Origin: a virus
IMG/VR virus record: IMGVR_UViG_3300042375_000522
Coordinates: 1 to 33,320 of that record
Strand: one strand, 5' to 3'
DNA: 33,320 nt
The notes under the pieces were generated by a model. The model was not told where the DNA came from and did no database searches. It saw nothing but the letters and a program-made list of their open reading frames with translations. Of this stretch, positions 5,203 through 25,393 are shown piece by piece (the stretch's first letter is position 1; every line of letters begins with the position of its first letter). The translations under genes and the position numbers were made by a program.

Positions 5203-6210
5203 TTAGTTTTTCTTTTTTGTTTGGCGCATTGCTTTTGTGCCTGGGGCGCTTTTAACCAGACTGTGCGGATTCTCGATCTGCAGCTCTTCTGCAAATTCGA
5301 GAAATTTTTCTGCTGACATCTTCCCGCCGCCGGCGAGAAATGCAGTTATTGGATCAAGCCGACCAGCGACATCCAAAGCCGTTGCAGGCTCGATGTATTG
5401 GCGATCTTTTGGGTTGGTCAGTGCCCACCCATCGATTTTCTCTCCTGACTCCAGACGGTCTCGTAGTGCGTCGGTGAGCGGGTCGCCAAATTCTTTGGTA
5501 AAGAATTTGAATCGGGTCACGAAGTCCACGTGCTGTTCACTGTCGGCGAGGATGCGGTCGCGGATGATGGTGAGCGAGTCCTTGTTGACTGATGCAACAT
5601 CAGCCAGCGCGGCCTTGCTCTGCACAACCAGCGCGCTACAAGTGTCCTTGTTCGCGCACCAGTCGCAATACTCGCACGGTGTTGGCTTCGCGTGCACCCA
5701 CGTTGCGCGGTCGATTGCTCGTCGAGTGATCTTCTCCGCCTCCTCGAGCGTAAACTCGTAGGTTCTGACAAGCCGCTGATCTACGTAAACGATGTGTGCC
5801 ACCCAGTAGTCGGCAAAGTATCTCTCCATACATGCCCATGAGTAGGCTGCTGCTTGGGCGAGATAATCCCTGACCTGTCCGGTTTTGATATCTGCCAGCC
5901 ATCCACCGTCTACGCAGAGCGCATCTGCCGTGCCGACCTTGCTGAGAGCGGGGACGGACATGGCGAGGTGAGTCTCGCGGCATTCGATGTCATGGTCGCC
6001 AGCCAACTCCAGAAGCTTGTGGACTCCCCACATGACGGTCTCTTTCTCGTCTTCGGGCATCGGCTCGTGATCCATGATGATATGTATCCGGTCGCGGATC
6101 CACCTATCAACTCGGGTGCCTCGCTCCGCAGCAGGGCTTGTCGTCCACGCCGAGACGTAGACCGGACATCCCTCGAGTTTGGGGAGCATGCTTGGTGATA
6201 GTTCCTTCAT
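5203..6210 (-). CDS. RecB/Cas4-like PD-(D/E)XK exonuclease
   Basis: A 335-residue nuclease. The core motifs are visible: Glu79, GTAD at 93-96, LADIKTG at 105-111 (Asp107, Lys109) and QAAAY at 119-123, the RecB-type QxxxY motif. A cysteine cluster follows (Cys179, 182, 185 and 191, in CEYCDWC...C), placed as in Cas4/AddB-type nucleases that hold an iron-sulfur cluster or zinc. The protein would resect DNA ends for strand annealing. It sits between the SSB-like gene and the Sak4-like gene, overlapping the latter's stop in an ATGA. This three-gene set is a known phage recombination module. Confidence 0.85.
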   Translation of the reverse strand: MKELSPSMLPKLEGCPVYVSAWTTSPAAERGTRVDRWIRDRIHIIMDHEPMPEDEKETVMWGVHKLLELAGDHDIECRETHLAMSVPALSKVGTADALCVDGGWLADIKTGQVRDYLAQAAAYSWACMERYFADYWVAHIVYVDQRLVRTYEFTLEEAEKITRRAIDRATWVHAKPTPCEYCDWCANKDTCSALVVQSKAALADVASVNKDSLTIIRDRILADSEQHVDFVTRFKFFTKEFGDPLTDALRDRLESGEKIDGWALTNPKDRQYIEPATALDVAGRLDPITAFLAGGGKMSAEKFLEFAEELQIENPHSLVKSAPGTKAMRQTKKKN

Positions 6211-7145
6211 TTTGCCTCCGATGTCAGAGCGTGAAACGCTGCCACGGTCGCCAAGAACTTTGGCACATCCTGGCGGATGCGCTCGAGCACGCGGTCAGAT
6301 GCCTCTGTCCAGTCCTGATCCGGTGTGATTTGATCCTTGGCCCGCAGGAATGCTGTTGCAGCCTCGCCGTGTTCGGCCACCTCGGCTGTCCAATCCTCGG
6401 TCTTTACTACCTTGGGTTGTGTTGGCTCCGGTGCCGCCTTTGCTGCTTTGAATAGATGCGAGACGCTGGCCCATTCCAAAGGCAACTCTTCCGCCAGACC
6501 GCTGCGGGTCTTGGCGTCGTAGGCCGCGCTGTGTGTTGTTAGTAGGATGCGCTCCTTGCCACCGATGCCCTTGCCGCGTCCGGTGTCCGTGGTCGAGACC
6601 TTTGTTTTGAAACGCAGGAACCAGAGTTCATCCGCGAACTCCTTGAGCAACGGCGAGCTTTGCTTGCTCAGTTTCAGCTCGTAGCGGTCGTATGGAGCGA
6701 GAGCGTCCGGCGCCTCGAACTTAACGATCCTGCTGTGAGCTATCAGCACGACATGTTTGCCTGCGTCGATCAGCGTATCGATGCTGGCGAGCATACGAGA
6801 CATCCTCTCCGCCACCATCACCCAGCCTTTGCCGAAGCCGAAGTCTTCAATGCTGGTCTTTTTGCTGGTCGCCAGCAGGTCTTCGACGCAGAGCCGCTCT
6901 GCCCAATCTGCCGAGTCTACGACAATGGTTTGATAGTCGGTCGCCTTGGCTTCTGTTAGAGCGTCCGTGAGTTGCTTCCAGCTGCCGATGTCGCAGCGGT
7001 CAACATCGAGGTGGCTCGTGCCCTGCTCGATGTCGAGGAAGAGCGGCCTTGGGAACTGCGCTGCGAAGGTCGACTTTCCGACCGACTCAACGCCGTAGAG
7101 AACTACGCGCTGTGCGCGTGTTTGTTTGCCTGTTGTTATTTTCAT
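6207..7145 (-). CDS. Sak4-like RecA-fold recombination ATPase
   Basis: A 312-residue P-loop NTPase. Walker A is GVESVGKST (18-26), Walker B TIVVDS (73-78), and a sensor-like LIAHS follows. The short RecA-like core with a variable C-terminal tail (rich in AAPEPTQPK near residue 240) matches the Sak4/AAA_24 group of phage proteins that pair single strands with help from an SSB. Partner genes for SSB and exonuclease follow in the same message. A 275-base noncoding leader with two pentamer arrays separates it from the gene upstream. The word ATACAAATAGAAATA lies just before the ATG. Confidence 0.83.
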   Translation of the reverse strand: MKITTGKQTRAQRVVLYGVESVGKSTFAAQFPRPLFLDIEQGTSHLDVDRCDIGSWKQLTDALTEAKATDYQTIVVDSADWAERLCVEDLLATSKKTSIEDFGFGKGWVMVAERMSRMLASIDTLIDAGKHVVLIAHSRIVKFEAPDALAPYDRYELKLSKQSSPLLKEFADELWFLRFKTKVSTTDTGRGKGIGGKERILLTTHSAAYDAKTRSGLAEELPLEWASVSHLFKAAKAAPEPTQPKVVKTEDWTAEVAEHGEAATAFLRAKDQITPDQDWTEASDRVLERIRQDVPKFLATVAAFHALTSEAK

Positions 7146-7151
7146 ACTGTG

Positions 7152-7169
7152 TATTTCTATTTGTATTTT
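7152..7169 (-). promoter_or_regulatory. A-rich leader word ATACAAATAGAAATA before sak4
   Basis: The minus strand carries AAAATACAAATAGAAATA 6 bases before the ATG of the Sak4-like gene. The same word occurs directly before the genes starting at 8249 and, slightly changed, at 10488. There is no Shine-Dalgarno here, so it may act as an A-rich translation enhancer. Its role is inferred from recurrence and position. Confidence 0.4.
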
Positions 7170-7205
7170 ATGTTTGTTTTAGTTGGCTGAATTGCCAGCT
7201 AACTG

Positions 7206-7225
7206 CTGCGCTCCGTAGAGCGCAG
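7206..7225 (-). other. Hairpin with TACG loop closing the second pentamer array
   Basis: On the minus strand CTGCGCTC and GAGCGCAG form a perfect 8-bp stem around TACG, i.e. C(UACG)G in RNA, one of the unusually stable UNCG tetraloops. It follows AACACACTGC at the 3' end of the 16-unit array. There is no T-run after it, so a terminator is unlikely. Confidence 0.7.
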
Positions 7226-7232
7226 TGTGTTA

Positions 7233-7310
7233 GCCTCGCCGTGCCTTGCCGTGCCTCGCCATGCCTCGCCTCGCCCCGCCAAGCCCCGCCCAGCCAGGCC
7301 CCGCCGCGCC
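7233..7310 (-). repeat. Pentamer array NGGCN, 16 units (second copy)
   Basis: Sixteen GGC triplets occur exactly every 5 bases on the minus strand without a single phase break. The two bases between triplets vary freely (GC, GG, CT, TG, GG, TT, GG, GA, GA, AT, GA, AC, AA, AC, GA). The array starts TGGCGCGGCGGGGC and ends in AACACACTGC plus a hairpin, just as the neighbouring 14-unit copy does. It is not a CRISPR or codon repeat. It lies in the leader of the Sak4-like gene. Confidence 0.9.
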
Positions 7311-7316
7311 AAACTT

Positions 7317-7338
7317 CTGCACCCCAAAAGGGATGCAG
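7317..7338 (-). other. Hairpin with TTTT loop closing the first pentamer array
   Basis: On the minus strand CTGCATCCC pairs with GGGGTGCAG (one wobble pair) around a TTTT loop. It occupies the same place after AACACACTGC as the hairpin at 7206-7225. The outer CTGC/GCAG is shared, while the inner stem differs but still pairs, which supports selection on the folded RNA. Confidence 0.68.
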
Positions 7339-7345
7339 TGTGTTT

Positions 7346-7413
7346 GCCGTGCCGTGCCGTGCCTCGCCTCGCCATGCCTTGCCCCGCCCGGCCAGGCCGC
7401 GCCCCGCCGCGCC
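7346..7413 (-). repeat. Pentamer array NGGCN, 14 units (first copy)
   Basis: Fourteen GGC triplets at strict 5-base spacing on the minus strand, starting TGGCGCGGCGGGGC seven bases after the stop of the upstream gene. Variable dinucleotides run GC, GG, GC, CT, CG, GG, AA, AT, GA, GA, AC, AC, AC. G/C-rich pairs lie at the 5' end and A-containing pairs at the 3' end, the same gradient as in the other copy. Copies differ by whole pentamers, which suggests growth and loss by slippage or unequal recombination. Confidence 0.9.
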
Positions 7414-7420
7414 ATAAAAA

Positions 7421-7981
7421 TTATACCCATTCAACCGAATACCTTCCAAAGATTGGTCGGAATGTGCCGAGTCCAAGAATCCCGCCCTGTTCGACCATTG
7501 TCTGCAAACAAGGCAGAGAGAGTAGGGTGTTTTCCTGATGTTCAAACCGCAGAGTGACCCTCCATCCGGTTGGAAGCATTGGCCTCTCCTTGGGGTTTGG
7601 CACACCATCCTTAACCCTTGCCACGTGCTGCAACACTTCGATCCGCGAATCTTGTAGTGTATAGGGATTGTTGTCAGCATCAGCAATCTGAGCGTGCAAA
7701 GGGTCATCTCCGGTAGCTTCAATTGAGACGAATGACATGACACCAAGGGCAACATCACGCGCCTGCTTTCCGTAAAAACGCTTGGCCACCGATGGCGTGT
7801 TTTGCGCTGCGAGTAGAGAGTAAACATTGAGCACCGGAATGACCAAATGCCCCGATCCCGTCACGTAGAATTTGTCCATGACCGGCAGTTTGGTTTTGTT
7901 GTCGCCCGCATAGCGGTCGAATAGTATGGGCCGGATGCCGCGAAGCGTGGCCGTAAGTGTAGTTGTTTTCGTGTCCTTCAT
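7421..7981 (-). CDS. Conserved phage protein with RAMP-like features, function unknown
   Basis: A 186-residue protein. It opens with a beta strand and TLRGIRPILFDRY and ends ILGLGTFRPIFGRYSVEWV. I recognise this as a widespread phage family with an N-terminal G-x-RPLL-type motif and a C-terminal glycine-rich GLGxxRPxFGRF motif. The glycine-rich loop recalls RAMP (Cas5/6/7-type) RNA-binding folds, but that link is my inference. The family is often found near recombination genes. Here it lies between the GIY-YIG-like gene and the pentamer arrays ahead of sak4. The ATG is preceded by ATACAAATAATAAAAAATT; the GIY-YIG reading frame overlaps its first 227 bases. Confidence 0.7.
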   Translation of the reverse strand: MKDTKTTTLTATLRGIRPILFDRYAGDNKTKLPVMDKFYVTGSGHLVIPVLNVYSLLAAQNTPSVAKRFYGKQARDVALGVMSFVSIEATGDDPLHAQIADADNNPYTLQDSRIEVLQHVARVKDGVPNPKERPMLPTGWRVTLRFEHQENTLLSLPCLQTMVEQGGILGLGTFRPIFGRYSVEWV

Positions 7982-8249
7982 AATTTTTTATTATTTGTAT
8001 TGCTTCTGCTTTGCTTATTGCAAACCACTCCCCATTGCCACTTGGCTTAATGAGTCGTTGGTGTGCAAGTTTAAGGTGGATTGTTTTTTCCAGAACATAT
8101 TTCATGCCCGGTTGAGTTGTGACCCAGCCGATAATTTCGAGGGCAAATGGAGACCATACGTGAGCCGCCCAAAGGCGATGCCGTAGGTCTTTTTCCGTGC
8201 AACCGATTTTGCATTCTTTTCCGTTGTGGAAGAAATAAATCCGTTCCAT
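7755..8249 (-). CDS. GIY-YIG/T5orf172-like protein with probably disturbed C terminus
   Basis: The first 90 or so residues form a compact domain: IYFFHNGKECKIGCTEKDL (residues 4-22), then GEWFAISKAEAIQIIKNY. The spacing fits the T5orf172/MUG113 branch of the GIY-YIG superfamily, small proteins related to nicking nucleases. Past this domain the frame runs 75 codons inside the next gene, with low-complexity, frame-shadow composition. Near 7983-7990 the message reads A AAA AAT TAT GAA; in the -1 frame this becomes TTA TGA, whose stop would overlap the next ATG in the ATGA style used throughout. The natural protein therefore probably ends near 7979. ATACAAATAGAA directly precedes the start codon. 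Confidence 0.6.
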   Translation of the reverse strand: MERIYFFHNGKECKIGCTEKDLRHRLWAAHVWSPFALEIIGWVTTQPGMKYVLEKTIHLKLAHQRLIKPSGNGEWFAISKAEAIQIIKNYEGHENNYTYGHASRHPAHTIRPLCGRQQNQTAGHGQILRDGIGAFGHSGAQCLLSTRSAKHAIGGQAFLRKAGA

Positions 8250-8265
8250 TTCTATTTGTATTTTT
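8249..8265 (-). promoter_or_regulatory. Leader word AAAAATACAAATAGAAA before the GIY-YIG-like gene
   Basis: The minus strand AAAAATACAAATAGAA runs straight into the ATG at 8249, and its TAG is also the stop codon of the RuvC-like gene. It nearly repeats the leader at 7152-7169, so its recurrence is unlikely to be chance. No Shine-Dalgarno sequence is present. Confidence 0.4.
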
Positions 8266-8692
8266 CGTTTGTTTCGGCAGCGTAAACGGCCACTGCCAGT
8301 GCCGCCCAGGTGTGGGACTTAATACCATAAGTCCCACCTGGGTTCTTCTTCGTTCCTTGCGGCCCGAAAATGTCGATGAGTCTCTGACGGATGTTTGCAT
8401 CCTTGGCTCGCATCGAGCCGCAGAGATACATTTTGATGTCCTTGCGGTAGCAGAGCCGCACCGGCGTGCGTGCCACCTCGAGGAATCGCCCGATCCACAC
8501 GCAGGTCTCGAAGGTCGAAGCACCTACCGCCATTCCGTAGCTTGCTATCATCTCGCAGGCCACGCTTGTATATTCGCGGCCGATCAGAATCTGCCTGATC
8601 TCCGCATTCGGCAGGTGGCCGTGGTCTACAATGAGACCGTGGTCGAATTGCACGAAGGCGGTGTGCGTCGTGCCGGGGTCAAGGGCGATCAT
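8252..8692 (-). CDS. RuvC-like Holliday junction resolvase
   Basis: A 146-residue protein with the RNase H-like fold of RuvC. It starts MIALDPGTTHTAFV with catalytic Asp5, followed by VACEMIASYGMAVG with Glu47. A C-terminal helix SHTWAALAVAVYAAE takes the place of the RuvC motif that carries the last acidic residues; here the expected aspartate is not evident, so activity is uncertain or uses the histidine variant seen in some phage forms. The enzyme would resolve branched DNA before packaging. It is 2 bases from the GIY-YIG-like gene and 3 from the small membrane protein upstream. Confidence 0.8.
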   Translation of the reverse strand: MIALDPGTTHTAFVQFDHGLIVDHGHLPNAEIRQILIGREYTSVACEMIASYGMAVGASTFETCVWIGRFLEVARTPVRLCYRKDIKMYLCGSMRAKDANIRQRLIDIFGPQGTKKNPGGTYGIKSHTWAALAVAVYAAETNEKYK

Positions 8693-8695
8693 AAG

Positions 8696-8857
8696 TTAAT
8701 CCTCCTCCTCGAACTCGCGCCACCGGCGCTGCCTCTCGCGACGACGCATGTCGTGTTGGCGCATCCGCCACAGGATGTTTTGTTGACCACACCAGTAGGA
8801 TGCGAGGCAACTCCCGAGGGTCAGGACGGCGATGCAGATTGCGAGGGTTGCGCTCAT
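8696..8857 (-). CDS. Small single-span membrane protein (53 aa)
   Basis: This short gene fits exactly between its neighbours. Its ATG at 8857 overlaps the upstream stop in an ATGA and has AAGGA eight bases before it. Its stop lies 3 bases before the RuvC-like gene. The protein has one hydrophobic segment (LAICIAVLTLGSCLASYW) followed by a strongly charged tail (RRRERQRRWREFEEED), giving a membrane anchor with a cytoplasmic charged end. No family is recognised. Its location among early genes argues against a lysis role. Confidence 0.7.
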   Translation of the reverse strand: MSATLAICIAVLTLGSCLASYWCGQQNILWRMRQHDMRRRERQRRWREFEEED

Positions 8858-9327
8858 CTTGTAATTCCTTCTTCAGACAACGCTGAATAAATCCCTCTTC
8901 TCCACCCCTTACCAACTTGCAGAGCTTGCCCGCAATTTGCTACGGTGATATTGTAGAGCCACCAACGCTCCTCTGGGGCAAGTCCGTTCCAGTTGCGTAT
9001 TATTTTAGTAAAATCTTCGTCGCTGGCAGTTTCCACCCCCCAGCAAAGGATGCAGAGTTCCTTCCCCAGTGAAGACGGAACCAATGCCATCCCAAGTTTT
9101 TTAGGGAATCGAAATTTCCCAGCGTTGTTTTTGCTGAATCGCTCAGCAGCAACCCTTTCAAAATCAGGTGCGATTTTATGCCACCGACTCACGGGCATAG
9201 ATACCCGTGCCCTGCGATCCGCGAGATAAGTAACAGGTGCAAGTTGATCAAATCTTTCACACTGGAATACAACAATTTGATCTTCGATTTTACTGACTGC
9301 AAAACCGTGGGTTATTAGCTTTTTCAT
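8854..9327 (-). CDS. DUF3780-like protein
   Basis: A 157-residue protein. Its C-terminal half contains GKEL (88-91), then NWNGLAPEERWWLY (112-125) and GKGWR (139-143). This matches closely what I remember of DUF3780, a domain named in bacterial defence-type gene clusters with DUF499 and DUF1156 proteins. Finding it alone in a phage early region is unusual: it could be a captured part of a defence system, an inhibitor of one, or a general DNA-modification accessory. It overlaps neighbours by ATGA on both sides. Its DNA is AT-richer than the flanking genes. Biochemical role is unknown. Confidence 0.65.
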   Translation of the reverse strand: MKKLITHGFAVSKIEDQIVVFQCERFDQLAPVTYLADRRARVSMPVSRWHKIAPDFERVAAERFSKNNAGKFRFPKKLGMALVPSSLGKELCILCWGVETASDEDFTKIIRNWNGLAPEERWWLYNITVANCGQALQVGKGWRRGIYSALSEEGITR

Positions 9328-21788: not shown

Positions 21789-22480
21789 ATCAGGCCGGTG
21801 GCCTTGCACAGACGCTCGTATTCGCTGCCCTTCGCAGGCTTCTCCTTGCTCGTGTTGTGCGTTGCGTTGCTCCAGTGAATTATGTCGTAGCTCTGCGCTG
21901 CTGGGTGCGTGTAAGGCGATCCATCAACGCCTCCGCAGTCGTAGTAATTACCGAAAGTGCGTGCTTGAATCCCGTTGTGTTGAATACCGTGGATCATTGC
22001 CACCATTGCATCGTGCCAGTTGCGGCCGGCCATTCCGTCTGCAAGCATGTCTCCGATAGTCTCTGCCATCTCTGCGGCGTATTCACTCCCTTTCGGTATC
22101 GACATAACGACCGGAGAGATCATCGAAAGCCACGGCGTGAATGTGTAGTCCTCGGCAACGATTGGTTTAGTAACAGCCGCATCCATCTGAACCCAGATTC
22201 CTCCGTGCGCGTGCAGAGTTTTGAATGCGAAATAGTCGCTCCAATGTGCGAGCGATCCGATGCCACCATTGGGCAGATGGTGCAAGGGATCGCCCGCGAA
22301 GCCGACGGGCGGCAGTGTGTCCTTGGGGAGCAGTTCAACGGTTACACCTTTTGGAATGCCGGCTAGTTTTGACTGCACCCAGAGCACCGGCTCGTGACCT
22401 GCGTCAATCAAAAGCTGCAAGGTCAACTTTTCCATCAGGCCGAGCTTCGTCCCGATCCACACTGAATGCGTCTGTGTCAT
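21785..22480 (-). CDS. DXD-type glycosyltransferase (capsular/OCH1-like)
   Basis: A 231-residue protein starting MTQTHSVWIGTKLGLMEKL. The core SLAHWSDYFAFKTLHAHGG followed by IWVQMDAAV matches the Gly_transf_sug pattern (SD, R/K, GG-I-x-x-D-x-D) of enzymes that move a sugar from a nucleotide donor; here the second position reads QMDA, so the metal-binding pair is slightly altered. The start at 22480 overlaps the preceding stop (ATGA) and has AAGGAG immediately upstream. It is the third gene of a sugar-transfer cassette inside the head genes. Confidence 0.72.
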   Translation of the reverse strand: MTQTHSVWIGTKLGLMEKLTLQLLIDAGHEPVLWVQSKLAGIPKGVTVELLPKDTLPPVGFAGDPLHHLPNGGIGSLAHWSDYFAFKTLHAHGGIWVQMDAAVTKPIVAEDYTFTPWLSMISPVVMSIPKGSEYAAEMAETIGDMLADGMAGRNWHDAMVAMIHGIQHNGIQARTFGNYYDCGGVDGSPYTHPAAQSYDIIHWSNATHNTSKEKPAKGSEYERLCKATGLI

Positions 22481-23640
22481 CTCCTTGAGAGAATTGTCAA
22501 TCCGTTGCAGTTCTCGTAATGCTCCGCAACCTTCCAGTGTGGGTTGATTTCCATCCACGCATGGATCGCTTCGTTGATGCCCTTGCCGTTATCTTCTCCG
22601 ACAGACCCGAACGCGACCGTGTCGTGGAACACGATATATTTGCTTGCCTGGTTGCCGTGCTTTTGCAGCTCTCCCTTAACCTGATCGTAGGAGTGGAGAG
22701 TGTCGATGAATAGCAACTCCGTCTGCTCGATTATCGGAATGTCCAGCGTCGATCCCTGCGTAAATGTCCAGTCTGTATCGAGCTGCTCGTGGATCGCAAA
22801 AACATTGAAAAAGTCGTGCAGGTCGTGGCTTCGCAGAGTGGCGTTTGGGTTGTCGCTCAGTCCGTGCAGGAATGAATATGTTGACATGCCGGTGCGGACT
22901 CCGAACTCGGTGATGTGGTCGCACTCTGCGGCCAACTGCGCGAGGCGGAGCATGTGCTCGTTGATGTCTCCTACGATCCCCCGGCTCCGGTGAAAGATAT
23001 TAGAGATCGGCCACATCTTGGAAAAAACTCGCGCTCCAAAGTCGTAAGCAAGCCGAGAGTTTTGAATCTTCACGATGTCGTCTTCTTCGCGGCTGCCGTT
23101 GCTCGGGTGGTCGTGCTGCCATTGCAATCCTTTCACGGACAGGATTGGAGCCTTTAGCATCGCACGATTTGTGAAGTCGTTGTCGCAAAAAACTCCGTGG
23201 TATTTCGGACAAAAAACATATTCAAGATGCTCGTAGAGCGCGCGAGATAGCACCGGATGGCACATCAGTCCGTCCTGCCTTACCGAGTCCGGAACATAGC
23301 AAGACCATTTTTGCTTCGGGTCTGGCAATTTGCGGAGTCTGGTGTCCCAGCCCTGCGGCGGAGTGAGATCATCGGCAATCACCACCAAAATGTCCCCCGT
23401 GGAAAACTGCGCGCAAACATTCCAGTTCGCCACGCTTGACGAGGCCCACGCTGGCGGGGGCGGAGTGGGCCACCAGTAAGCCTCCGCTGTGGTGAACGCC
23501 TTGATGCTTTCCATGTCGTCGCTCTGGATTCCAAAGATATGCTCGACCTGAGCAGCATCGTCCGCTCTGTCGATCCATATTTTGCGTGTTGCGAGTGCGC
23601 GTTCTGGCGTGCCACGGGTGGCGTGAAGTAGTGAAATCAT
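22477..23640 (-). CDS. Glycosyltransferase-like domain fused to a SAM methyltransferase
   Basis: A 387-residue two-domain protein. Residues 2-180 are glycosyltransferase-like: ISLLHATRGTPERAL at 2-16, VEHIFGIQSDD at 32-42 and VIADDLTPPQGWD at 87-99 (an acidic pair in place of DxD). Residues about 220-387 are a class I methyltransferase: EFGVRTGMST at 245-254 (SAM-binding loop), LLFIDTLHSYD at 309-319 and FHDTV at 338-342, as in the Methyltransf_24 group. It may add and then methylate a sugar. The N-terminal domain is a paralogue of the C-terminal domain of the neighbouring glycosyltransferase. ATGA overlaps on both sides. Confidence 0.78.
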   Translation of the reverse strand: MISLLHATRGTPERALATRKIWIDRADDAAQVEHIFGIQSDDMESIKAFTTAEAYWWPTPPPPAWASSSVANWNVCAQFSTGDILVVIADDLTPPQGWDTRLRKLPDPKQKWSCYVPDSVRQDGLMCHPVLSRALYEHLEYVFCPKYHGVFCDNDFTNRAMLKAPILSVKGLQWQHDHPSNGSREEDDIVKIQNSRLAYDFGARVFSKMWPISNIFHRSRGIVGDINEHMLRLAQLAAECDHITEFGVRTGMSTYSFLHGLSDNPNATLRSHDLHDFFNVFAIHEQLDTDWTFTQGSTLDIPIIEQTELLFIDTLHSYDQVKGELQKHGNQASKYIVFHDTVAFGSVGEDNGKGINEAIHAWMEINPHWKVAEHYENCNGLTILSRR

Positions 23641-25361
23641 TTTGTTGGTGTGTTGTTTATTTCGTTGTTTATTTCATTGAAGAGTTTTTCCGCACGCTCT
23701 CTCTCCACAGGCTCCGCCACCCTGCGATATGTAGCGTCGAGCGAACGATTCTCAAGAGCCGGGTGATGATGAACGAGAGCAATGTCACGAGCGTTAATGA
23801 TCGCACCAGCCTTCGCGGCACGAACGGTGAAGTCCGCATCGCTGAATTGATTTTTGAATCTGGGGTCGAAGAGTCCGTGTTGCTCATAATATTTGCGAGT
23901 GATGATTGCCATCGTGATTAGTTCGTCGGTTCGATACCCATCGCTTGTGCGTAAAACATACGCTGCACCTGTGTCCAAGCGGCTGTCTACCATATCGTCC
24001 CATCCGGGCGGAGGCTCGATGTCGTCTGAACATTGTATCAAAATTTCTCCTGTGCTGTTTTCTGCGGCGAGGTTCCACGCGCCGACTGAATATCCGCCTT
24101 CCGTCTGCACGACTCCGCCGAATCGGTTGAGAGTTGCAGCTGTTTCGTCGTCATGATCGACGGCAAAGATGTGCTCGACTCGCTCCGGGTTGTTTGCCCG
24201 TTGCAGCCACATTGTCATGTTCTGGATTGCTGCGATCGGTCTGCCACGAGTGGCGTGGAGCAGGGAGATTCGTGTGCCTTGTGCTTCGCTCAGGATCGCT
24301 TGATCGACCGCAAACGCACCTTGTGCATCGCCAAGCTCACGCAAGCACCATGCGCGCAGCCTACGGGCCTTCCAGCCATACCATTCTTTTTTGTGCGTCC
24401 ACTGTGGGAAGGACGGCACCGGTATTTTCTCCATCGCTTCGATGACTTCGAGTGCCGCTTCCGACTCTCCGCAATCGAGCAAGATCGACGCTTCGATGGC
24501 GTAGGCTTCGCGCCTGTTGAGATCGAGTGCCTTTGCGCGGCGAGCAAACTTGAGTGCCGAATCGGTGTGACTCATGTTGCTCAAATTCAAGAGCACTTCA
24601 TAGCGGTGGACTGCGTCAAGATCACGCAGCGCCAGCGACTCCGCGCCGTAGCGCAAAGCGTTCTCGGTGTCTCCAACAATCATCCGCTCGTAGTGCAGAT
24701 AAAACTTAAAATGCGACGACATCCGGTCGTGATGCGCGAGGATGCGTAGGTTGCGGTCATTGCTGGGCCTGCGTCCGAGAGCAGGCCGGTGCTCGATCTC
24801 AAGGTCTCGCCGGAGAAGAATTTTGCGTGGTAGCGGTTCGCCATTTTCGCCGCTTGGTGGGTGTGCGTTTTCGTGGACAGGTCTCCACCACCAGGCTGAA
24901 TCCTTGCGAAAGAATCTCTCCCGTGGTGCGCGCTTGCCTTGCTCGGTTATGACGTAGTCGGTCAGCACCCAATGCACTTCAGGACTGACTTCGCGGAGCA
25001 TCTTTAAGTGCGGCTCGACCATGTTTTCGGCAAGCACATCGTCGCAGTCGGCCCACATGACCCAGTCGCCGTCCTGGATTATCGAATACGCGATTTCGAA
25101 GGCGTCATTTCTTGCTGCTGCAAAGTCATCCACATGCGGCCACGAAGCGCACAGCGGCGAGTTAAAATACTCGTTGACCCTGCACCCAAGCTCTTCGGCG
25201 ATGTCCAGGGTGTTGTCTGGCTTTAAGCTGCCGGTGGCTCGCACAACGACGATCTCGTTGCAGATTTTTTGTAGCGATAAAACGCATCGCTCGATTCTCT
25301 CCTCTTCGTTGCCGCAAATAAGAGCGGCTACCAAACGCGGTTGTGTGCTCATCTTCCCCAT
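23637..25361 (-). CDS. Two-domain glycosyltransferase with helical (TPR-like) middle
   Basis: About 574 residues. An N-terminal GT2-type domain begins LVAALICGNEEERIERCV and has the metal site WADCDD near 104-109. A middle section of repeated helices (ALRYGAESLALRDLD, ALKFARRAKALDL, ALEVIEAMEK) looks TPR-like. The C-terminal domain begins ISLLHATRGRPIAA near 390 and contains VEHIFAVDHDD and QCSDDIEPPPGWDD, a second transferase unit. The start is uncertain between 25361 and 25352; GGGTGG lies before the first. It follows the capsid terminator, so it probably has lower expression than capsid genes. Target, perhaps a virion protein, is unknown. Confidence 0.8.
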   Translation of the reverse strand: MGKMSTQPRLVAALICGNEEERIERCVLSLQKICNEIVVVRATGSLKPDNTLDIAEELGCRVNEYFNSPLCASWPHVDDFAAARNDAFEIAYSIIQDGDWVMWADCDDVLAENMVEPHLKMLREVSPEVHWVLTDYVITEQGKRAPRERFFRKDSAWWWRPVHENAHPPSGENGEPLPRKILLRRDLEIEHRPALGRRPSNDRNLRILAHHDRMSSHFKFYLHYERMIVGDTENALRYGAESLALRDLDAVHRYEVLLNLSNMSHTDSALKFARRAKALDLNRREAYAIEASILLDCGESEAALEVIEAMEKIPVPSFPQWTHKKEWYGWKARRLRAWCLRELGDAQGAFAVDQAILSEAQGTRISLLHATRGRPIAAIQNMTMWLQRANNPERVEHIFAVDHDDETAATLNRFGGVVQTEGGYSVGAWNLAAENSTGEILIQCSDDIEPPPGWDDMVDSRLDTGAAYVLRTSDGYRTDELITMAIITRKYYEQHGLFDPRFKNQFSDADFTVRAAKAGAIINARDIALVHHHPALENRSLDATYRRVAEPVERERAEKLFNEINNEINNTPTK

Positions 25362-25393
25362 CGTTACCACCCGTCAAGATTATTTGCGAAAAC

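Follow-up and report, generated by a model that had tools for sequence, protein, structure and literature searches.

Two phased GGC arrays beside a vipr gene in an uncultivated phage: a very probable VIPR locus with an overlapping GIY-YIG nuclease frame

VIPR (Viral Interference Programmable Repeat), described in a preprint of April 2026 (PMC13142463), consists of the Vipr protein and of vrRNAs in which GGY triplets alternate with variable dinucleotides (NN). Vipr is a RAMP protein thought to be older than CRISPR, and VIPR is proposed there as a CRISPR forerunner. According to the same preprint, a vrRNA comprises 9–16 YNNGG repeats followed by a structured tail, double-stranded DNA is recognised as NNxNN with one base skipped, mostly the wobble base, and the system represses competing phages and prophages; its main text assigns predicted nucleases to VIPR types III and V only, found enriched in defence islands. 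The formation of the ribonucleoprotein (RNP), the skip rule and the repression are results published in PMC13142463 and not of the present analysis. Here we describe a stretch of 33,320 nt (positions 1 to 33,320 of IMG/VR virus record IMGVR_UViG_3300042375_000522, hereafter the window), in which two neighbouring arrays of GGC triplets, A and B, lie next to a gene of the Vipr family (Table 1). The arrays with their tails are very probably two vrRNAs of a VIPR locus, in a phage that probably infects Verrucomicrobiota, and their guides would address two protein-coding sites. An earlier note made from the letters alone, the original prediction, knew of no named element with this layout, a fair statement, but VIPR and its vrRNAs are such an element.

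The type II VIPR of the Escherichia phage SUSP1 (PDB 36pp) resembles the window in several respects. Both are phage-borne, both have a RAMP of about 190 residues with a glycine-rich end, and both have flanking GGY/NN pentamer arrays, each with a structured 3′ tail, in which NN are hypervariable. The window differs in using GGC only, where SUSP1 uses mostly GGT, in a tail that is a simple hairpin with a 3x2 internal loop (AACACA...AGTT), in a Vipr that belongs to a distinct long-branch clade, and in a GIY-YIG nuclease open reading frame (ORF) overlapping the start of vipr. The class 1 CRISPR effectors, type VII Cas7 and type III Csm3, share with Vipr the RRM-type RAMP fold, and an alignment along the guide RNA is expected in both; the guide in the window, however, is non-contiguous and has a pentamer register, whereas the CRISPR register is 6 nt. 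No CRISPR repeats or spacers were found at the locus, and the window proteins that were scanned include no cas gene product. Every anatomical feature of VIPR that can be tested in sequence is present in the window, namely Vipr, pitch-5 repeats, hypervariable NN, a structured 3′ tail and same-strand flanking arrays.

Table 1. Features of the putative VIPR locus and its decoded guides (window coordinates)
Feature	Coordinates	Strand	Description
Sak4-like AAA_24 recombinase	6207..7145	-	phrog_124 E=1.4e-56; PF13479; probably not part of the system
Putative vrRNA B tail	7200..7232	-	TAAC-ACA-CTGCGCTC-TACG-GAGCGCAG-CA-GTTA; 33 nt; fold z -5.1
Putative vrRNA B variable region	7233..7310	-	16 GGC triplets, 15 internal NN
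Putative vrRNA A tail	7311..7345	-	AAAC-ACA-CTGCATCCC-TTTT-GGGGTGCAG-AA-GTTT; 35 nt; fold z -4.0
Putative vrRNA A variable region	7346..7413	-	14 GGC triplets, 13 internal NN
vipr gene	7424..7981	-	186-aa RAMP (Cas7-like) protein; ORF end 8 nt upstream of the arrays
GIY-YIG-type (T5orf172/MUG113) nuclease ORF	7755..8249	-	164 aa; Pfam PF13455/PF10544 in 5/5; candidate accessory (vap) gene
Guide A, decoded target			pattern GCNGGNGCNCTNCGNGGNAANATNGANGANACNACNAC; reads A-G-A-L-R-G-[KN]-[IM]-[DE]-[DE]-T-T-T
Guide B, decoded target			pattern GCNGGNCTNTGNGGNTTNGGNGANGANATNGANACNAANACNGA; reads A-G-L-[CW]-G-[FL]-G-[DE]-[DE]-[IM]-[DE]-T-[NK]-T-[DE]

The arrays of 14 and 16 triplets at an unbroken 5-nt pitch, which the original prediction had reported, are present on the minus strand. 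Read on that strand, the NN of array A (7413–7346) are GC GG GC CT CG GG AA AT GA GA AC AC AC, and those of array B (7310–7233) are GC GG CT TG GG TT GG GA GA AT GA AC AA AC GA. Six-unit GGCNN windows number 20 here and 0 in 100 dinucleotide-preserving shuffles, and the chance expectation for both arrays is zero. A ten-unit GGCNN scan of IMG/VR returned at least 120 stretches, and 115 of the 120 listed have at least five different spacers. The reversed-triplet control, CGG at pitch 5 over all of IMG/VR, gave 27 stretches, all of them microsatellites with no more than three different spacers. When 50 contigs were scanned in full, the forward pattern gave hundreds of matches and the backward control a single one; in bacterial genomes only a handful of degenerate loci appear among the matches listed. 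The gradient of the variable bases from G/C to A that had been noted in both arrays is mostly guide content, and the part of it that holds across the family is an A-rich last NN (A 0.47, compared with ~0.26 inside; AA in 25%; 300 guides, L003–L229). The 3′-terminal unit may therefore be unused for pairing.

Some array carriers depart from the simple layout. The 55-kb contig IMGVR_UViG_3300046723_000197 (G028, locus L064), where six-unit matches number 60 in forward and 54 in reverse orientation, is the richest carrier seen and among the few contigs with arrays on both strands. At five loci (L096, L100, L113, L117, L461) a single A joins runs as GGC-A-GGC, a 4-nt slip every ~44–54 nt with no tail between, and these may be what the preprint calls 'staggered arrays with overlapping vrRNAs' (PMC13142463). 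When translated, arrays yield spurious ORFs with a high content of R, A, G and H (e.g. RARHGEARHG), at 7230–7430 and similarly in 63 loci, which will pollute gene calls.

The product of the gene beside the arrays belongs to a family whose profile matches PDB 36pp, 'SUSP1 Vipr protein', at E=2.1e-34 (1.4e-4 with the profile of the window's own clade). Its AlphaFold2 (AF2) model has a pLDDT of 96, and the best folds retrieved with it by Foldseek are type VII Cas7 and Csm3 (E ~2e-6, TM ~0.56). The family is absent from Pfam; 67 of its 68 members fall in phrog_4652, of unknown function, and G15, R133, W140, G167, G170 and G179 are invariant across the 68. With an iterated profile of the vipr ORF, the family was found in 87 of 116 listed array loci and in none of 25 viral controls; gene and array share a strand at 86 of the 87, and the median distance between them is 76 nt. 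The same profile found it in five of the nine genome loci with degenerate arrays and in none of the others. The reverse test gave the same association: 80 viral loci were chosen by the Vipr protein alone and arrays were sought within 1.5 kb, and GGY arrays at pitch 5 stood at 72 of them, none on the opposite strand, against 0–4 for control triplets or pitches. The arrays occupy long untranslated, intergenic stretches flanking vipr, on the vipr strand. Thus a protein that reads the repeats, one of the explanations offered in the original prediction, was right in essence, as Vipr is encoded next door. Longer proteins of the family (~244–255 aa) occur at L028, L088, L116, L122, L042, L102 and L195, some of which continue beyond the glycine-rich end with additional C-terminal sequence.

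The variable dinucleotides change while the rest of the locus is kept. At locus L468, where Vipr is 97% identical to that of the window and the tails are near-identical, every NN of both arrays is different; at L469, with 89% identity in Vipr, the NN are unrelated. Such complete exchange at 97% protein identity is the behaviour of a guide. Across a set of 300 distinct guides, NN composition fits that of codon positions 1–2 in the sense direction (r=0.64, Jensen-Shannon value 0.025), whereas r is at most 0.29 in other phases or in antisense. Guides A and B of the window are both sense-coding, with log2 odds of 4.2 each. This codon phase favours a reading in which one base is skipped per step. 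NN blocks are also common to the guides of different phages, mostly at shifted offsets (18 pairs at a score of at least 16, against 2 for shuffled guides), although a few of these pairs come from near-identical phages; such sharing is expected if the guides address the same genes.

Both arrays have the same start and end in AACACACTGC followed by a hairpin, and this resemblance, noticed in the original prediction, is real. The suggestion of a structured RNA made there is right for the tails, which both fold well below their shuffles. The tail of array B is identical in L468 and L469. In 10 tails of related phages 99.1% of cells are paired, three pairs show compensatory change, and covariation scores 0.205, compared with 0.098 for shuffled alignments (0/500), a signal that is lost when the partner strand is slid. 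Rfam 15 models gave no match over 6900–8300 up to E=1. The AAC...GTT tail also suggested an integron attC-like site, a reading that was dropped because throughout the close clade each array has this tail on its 3′ side.

Other explanations of the arrays fit these data poorly. We found no point that supports an assembly artefact or random GC-rich sequence; with hundreds of independent contigs following the same rule and zero occurrences in shuffles, its probability is practically nil. The original prediction had named broken phase in relatives as evidence against an element, and the outcome favours a real one. It had also excluded a simple microsatellite, correctly, since the spacers are degenerate, unlike those of the CGG microsatellites; a simple tandem repeat was set aside because the units are not identical. 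A slippage-prone microsatellite or copy-number switch ahead of the recombinase gene, which it still entertained, would account for tandem pentamers and for array lengths that vary between relatives. This explanation is hardly credible given five or more kinds of spacer in nearly all listed loci, the exchange of all NN against the L468 relative with pitch, triplets and tails kept, and arrays that are not tied to sak4.

A cis-acting role deserves more attention. Here Vipr would bind the GGC tracts of two mRNAs, its own and that of the following sak4, and control translation as TRAP does, with no guiding to DNA. The sites bound by TRAP are laid out as many RNA triplets with 2-nt spacers, much like the arrays, and the position of the arrays in untranslated stretches on the vipr strand would suit such control. 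Yet the arrays have GGC and not (G/U)AG, at a strict pitch, and run from 6 to more than 50 units without an 11-mer ceiling. Hypervariable NN would be needless for a binding site, all the more so where protein and tails are kept as in L468, and so would a codon phase in NN composition; the Vipr fold is Cas7-like and unrelated to TRAP, and the neighbouring genes vary between relatives. TRAP-like attenuation or cis-regulation was rejected on NN hypervariability and fold, and we consider it very improbable.

We therefore return to the VIPR reading, which draws on sequence for the anatomy of the locus, its membership in the family, the strand and pitch rule, the hypervariability of the guides, the covariation of the tails and a constraint consistent with dual coding. 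Each array with its hairpin tail would form one vrRNA. Vipr would polymerise on the GGC/NN tract, presumably with a single subunit for each pentamer, which would grip the GGC and expose the two variable bases. These dinucleotides would pair with double-stranded DNA in the pattern NNxNNx..., one base being passed over at each step, in most cases the wobble base of a codon. The two guides would thus address two protein-coding sites in a phage or prophage that competes with this one and stop transcription at those sites, and in this clade the overlapping GIY-YIG nuclease may contribute cleavage of the DNA. We infer that the locus is active, that its guides match rival phages and that the DNA they mark is cut by the GIY-YIG enzyme. 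The analysis lends independent support from raw sequence to the claims made for VIPR (array-protein linkage, guide hypervariability and codon-phased NN). It also widens the known range of the system: the uncultivated phages of this divergent clade have a new type of tail, and a conserved nuclease gene overlaps their vipr.

Several points weigh against this assignment. In the Vipr tree the window is one of 15 members of a clade that a long branch with full support separates from SUSP1, and expression, RNP formation and the skip rule would have to hold across that distance. A tblastn search with only the window Vipr gave no match in INPHARED phages. No natural target of guide A or B was found in IMG/VR, where halves of eight NN gave chance-like numbers of stretches (19, 16, 38 and 105), and no target with up to three mismatches was found in 289 Verrucomicrobiota genomes. 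The SUSP1 guide, searched as a positive control, also had no match in IMG/VR, so the power of the search is low and the missing targets are weak evidence. A brute-force target search over the loci collected here with skips of 0–3 gave no signal, and for self-targeting the best matches within the window were no better than those of shuffled guides. The best partial matches in IMG/VR are 22/26 for guide A and 23/30 for guide B. The former lies in a 'WFAPAGALRGKID' tail-sheath-like gene of seven related contigs, in the motif 'PAGALRGKID'; it is suggestive only, a lead and not a result.

The GIY-YIG ORF overlaps the 5′ 227 nt of vipr (7755–7981) in another frame. It occurs at 32 of the 80 Vipr-selected loci, always overlapping, including all 24 closest to the window and 8 further ones, and the geometry is -268 to +227 or close to it at all 32. 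Comparing the window with L467 and L466, vipr codons for the same amino acid are identical at 0.77–0.81 in the overlap against 0.38 outside, and over 18 distinct sequences the silent-site constraint on vipr falls beyond codon 75, the point at which the GIY ORF stops. A synonymous constraint confined to the overlap points to dual coding. Solo T5orf172 genes are common in phages, and the ORF could be an unrelated homing-type gene whose tail overlaps vipr as a chance open frame. The low AF2 confidence of the overlapping C-terminal part is in keeping with this. The nuclease model as a whole, built from too few sequences, reached a pLDDT of 46, and the profile of the GIY-YIG set gave no match in PDB. 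We regard a chance frame as unlikely, given the constant geometry in the close and further loci and a codon identity that drops at the ORF stop. The association appears to be new, provisionally, as the main text of the preprint contains no mention of a GIY-YIG ORF overlapping vipr (PMC13142463). A bolder proposal, which we put forward tentatively and with less than even confidence, is that of a nuclease-armed phage VIPR, in which the GIY-YIG enzyme is recruited to guide-selected DNA and cuts the genomes of rival phages; target destruction would then have arisen within phages and would not be confined to host defence islands. The locus offers a testable case of whether phages use VIPR to cut DNA and not only to silence it.

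The original prediction had taken the arrays for a leader of the recombinase gene, a reading that is not supported. They lie directly 3′ of vipr, with which it had not connected them, and the Sak4 gene is merely the next one. The block of GIY-YIG ORF, vipr and arrays precedes sak4-exo in the window but follows it in L466 and L467, and the closest prophage relative (G180) has sak4, exo and a methyltransferase gene without the block. The block thus behaves as a cassette. Sak4 is 62% identical to a protein of a Verrucomicrobiota genome, against at most ~47% in sequenced phages, so the host is probably of that phylum. Just upstream of several start codons (minus strand; 7150–7168, 8254–8270 and 7988–8000) an A-rich leader, ATACAAATA, stands in place of a clear Shine-Dalgarno site. 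At 8854–9327 a DUF3780 protein is encoded, which is also among the PADLOC defence-associated models. Farther away, two ORFs matching glycosyltransferases (phrog_14945 and phrog_13126) adjoin the major head protein gene at 22477–25370. A tandem 22-bp repeat, GGTTAGCGTTGGGTTACGGTTG, is present in 2.2 copies at 1627–1675, between dnaB and an ORF resembling a replication-initiation gene.
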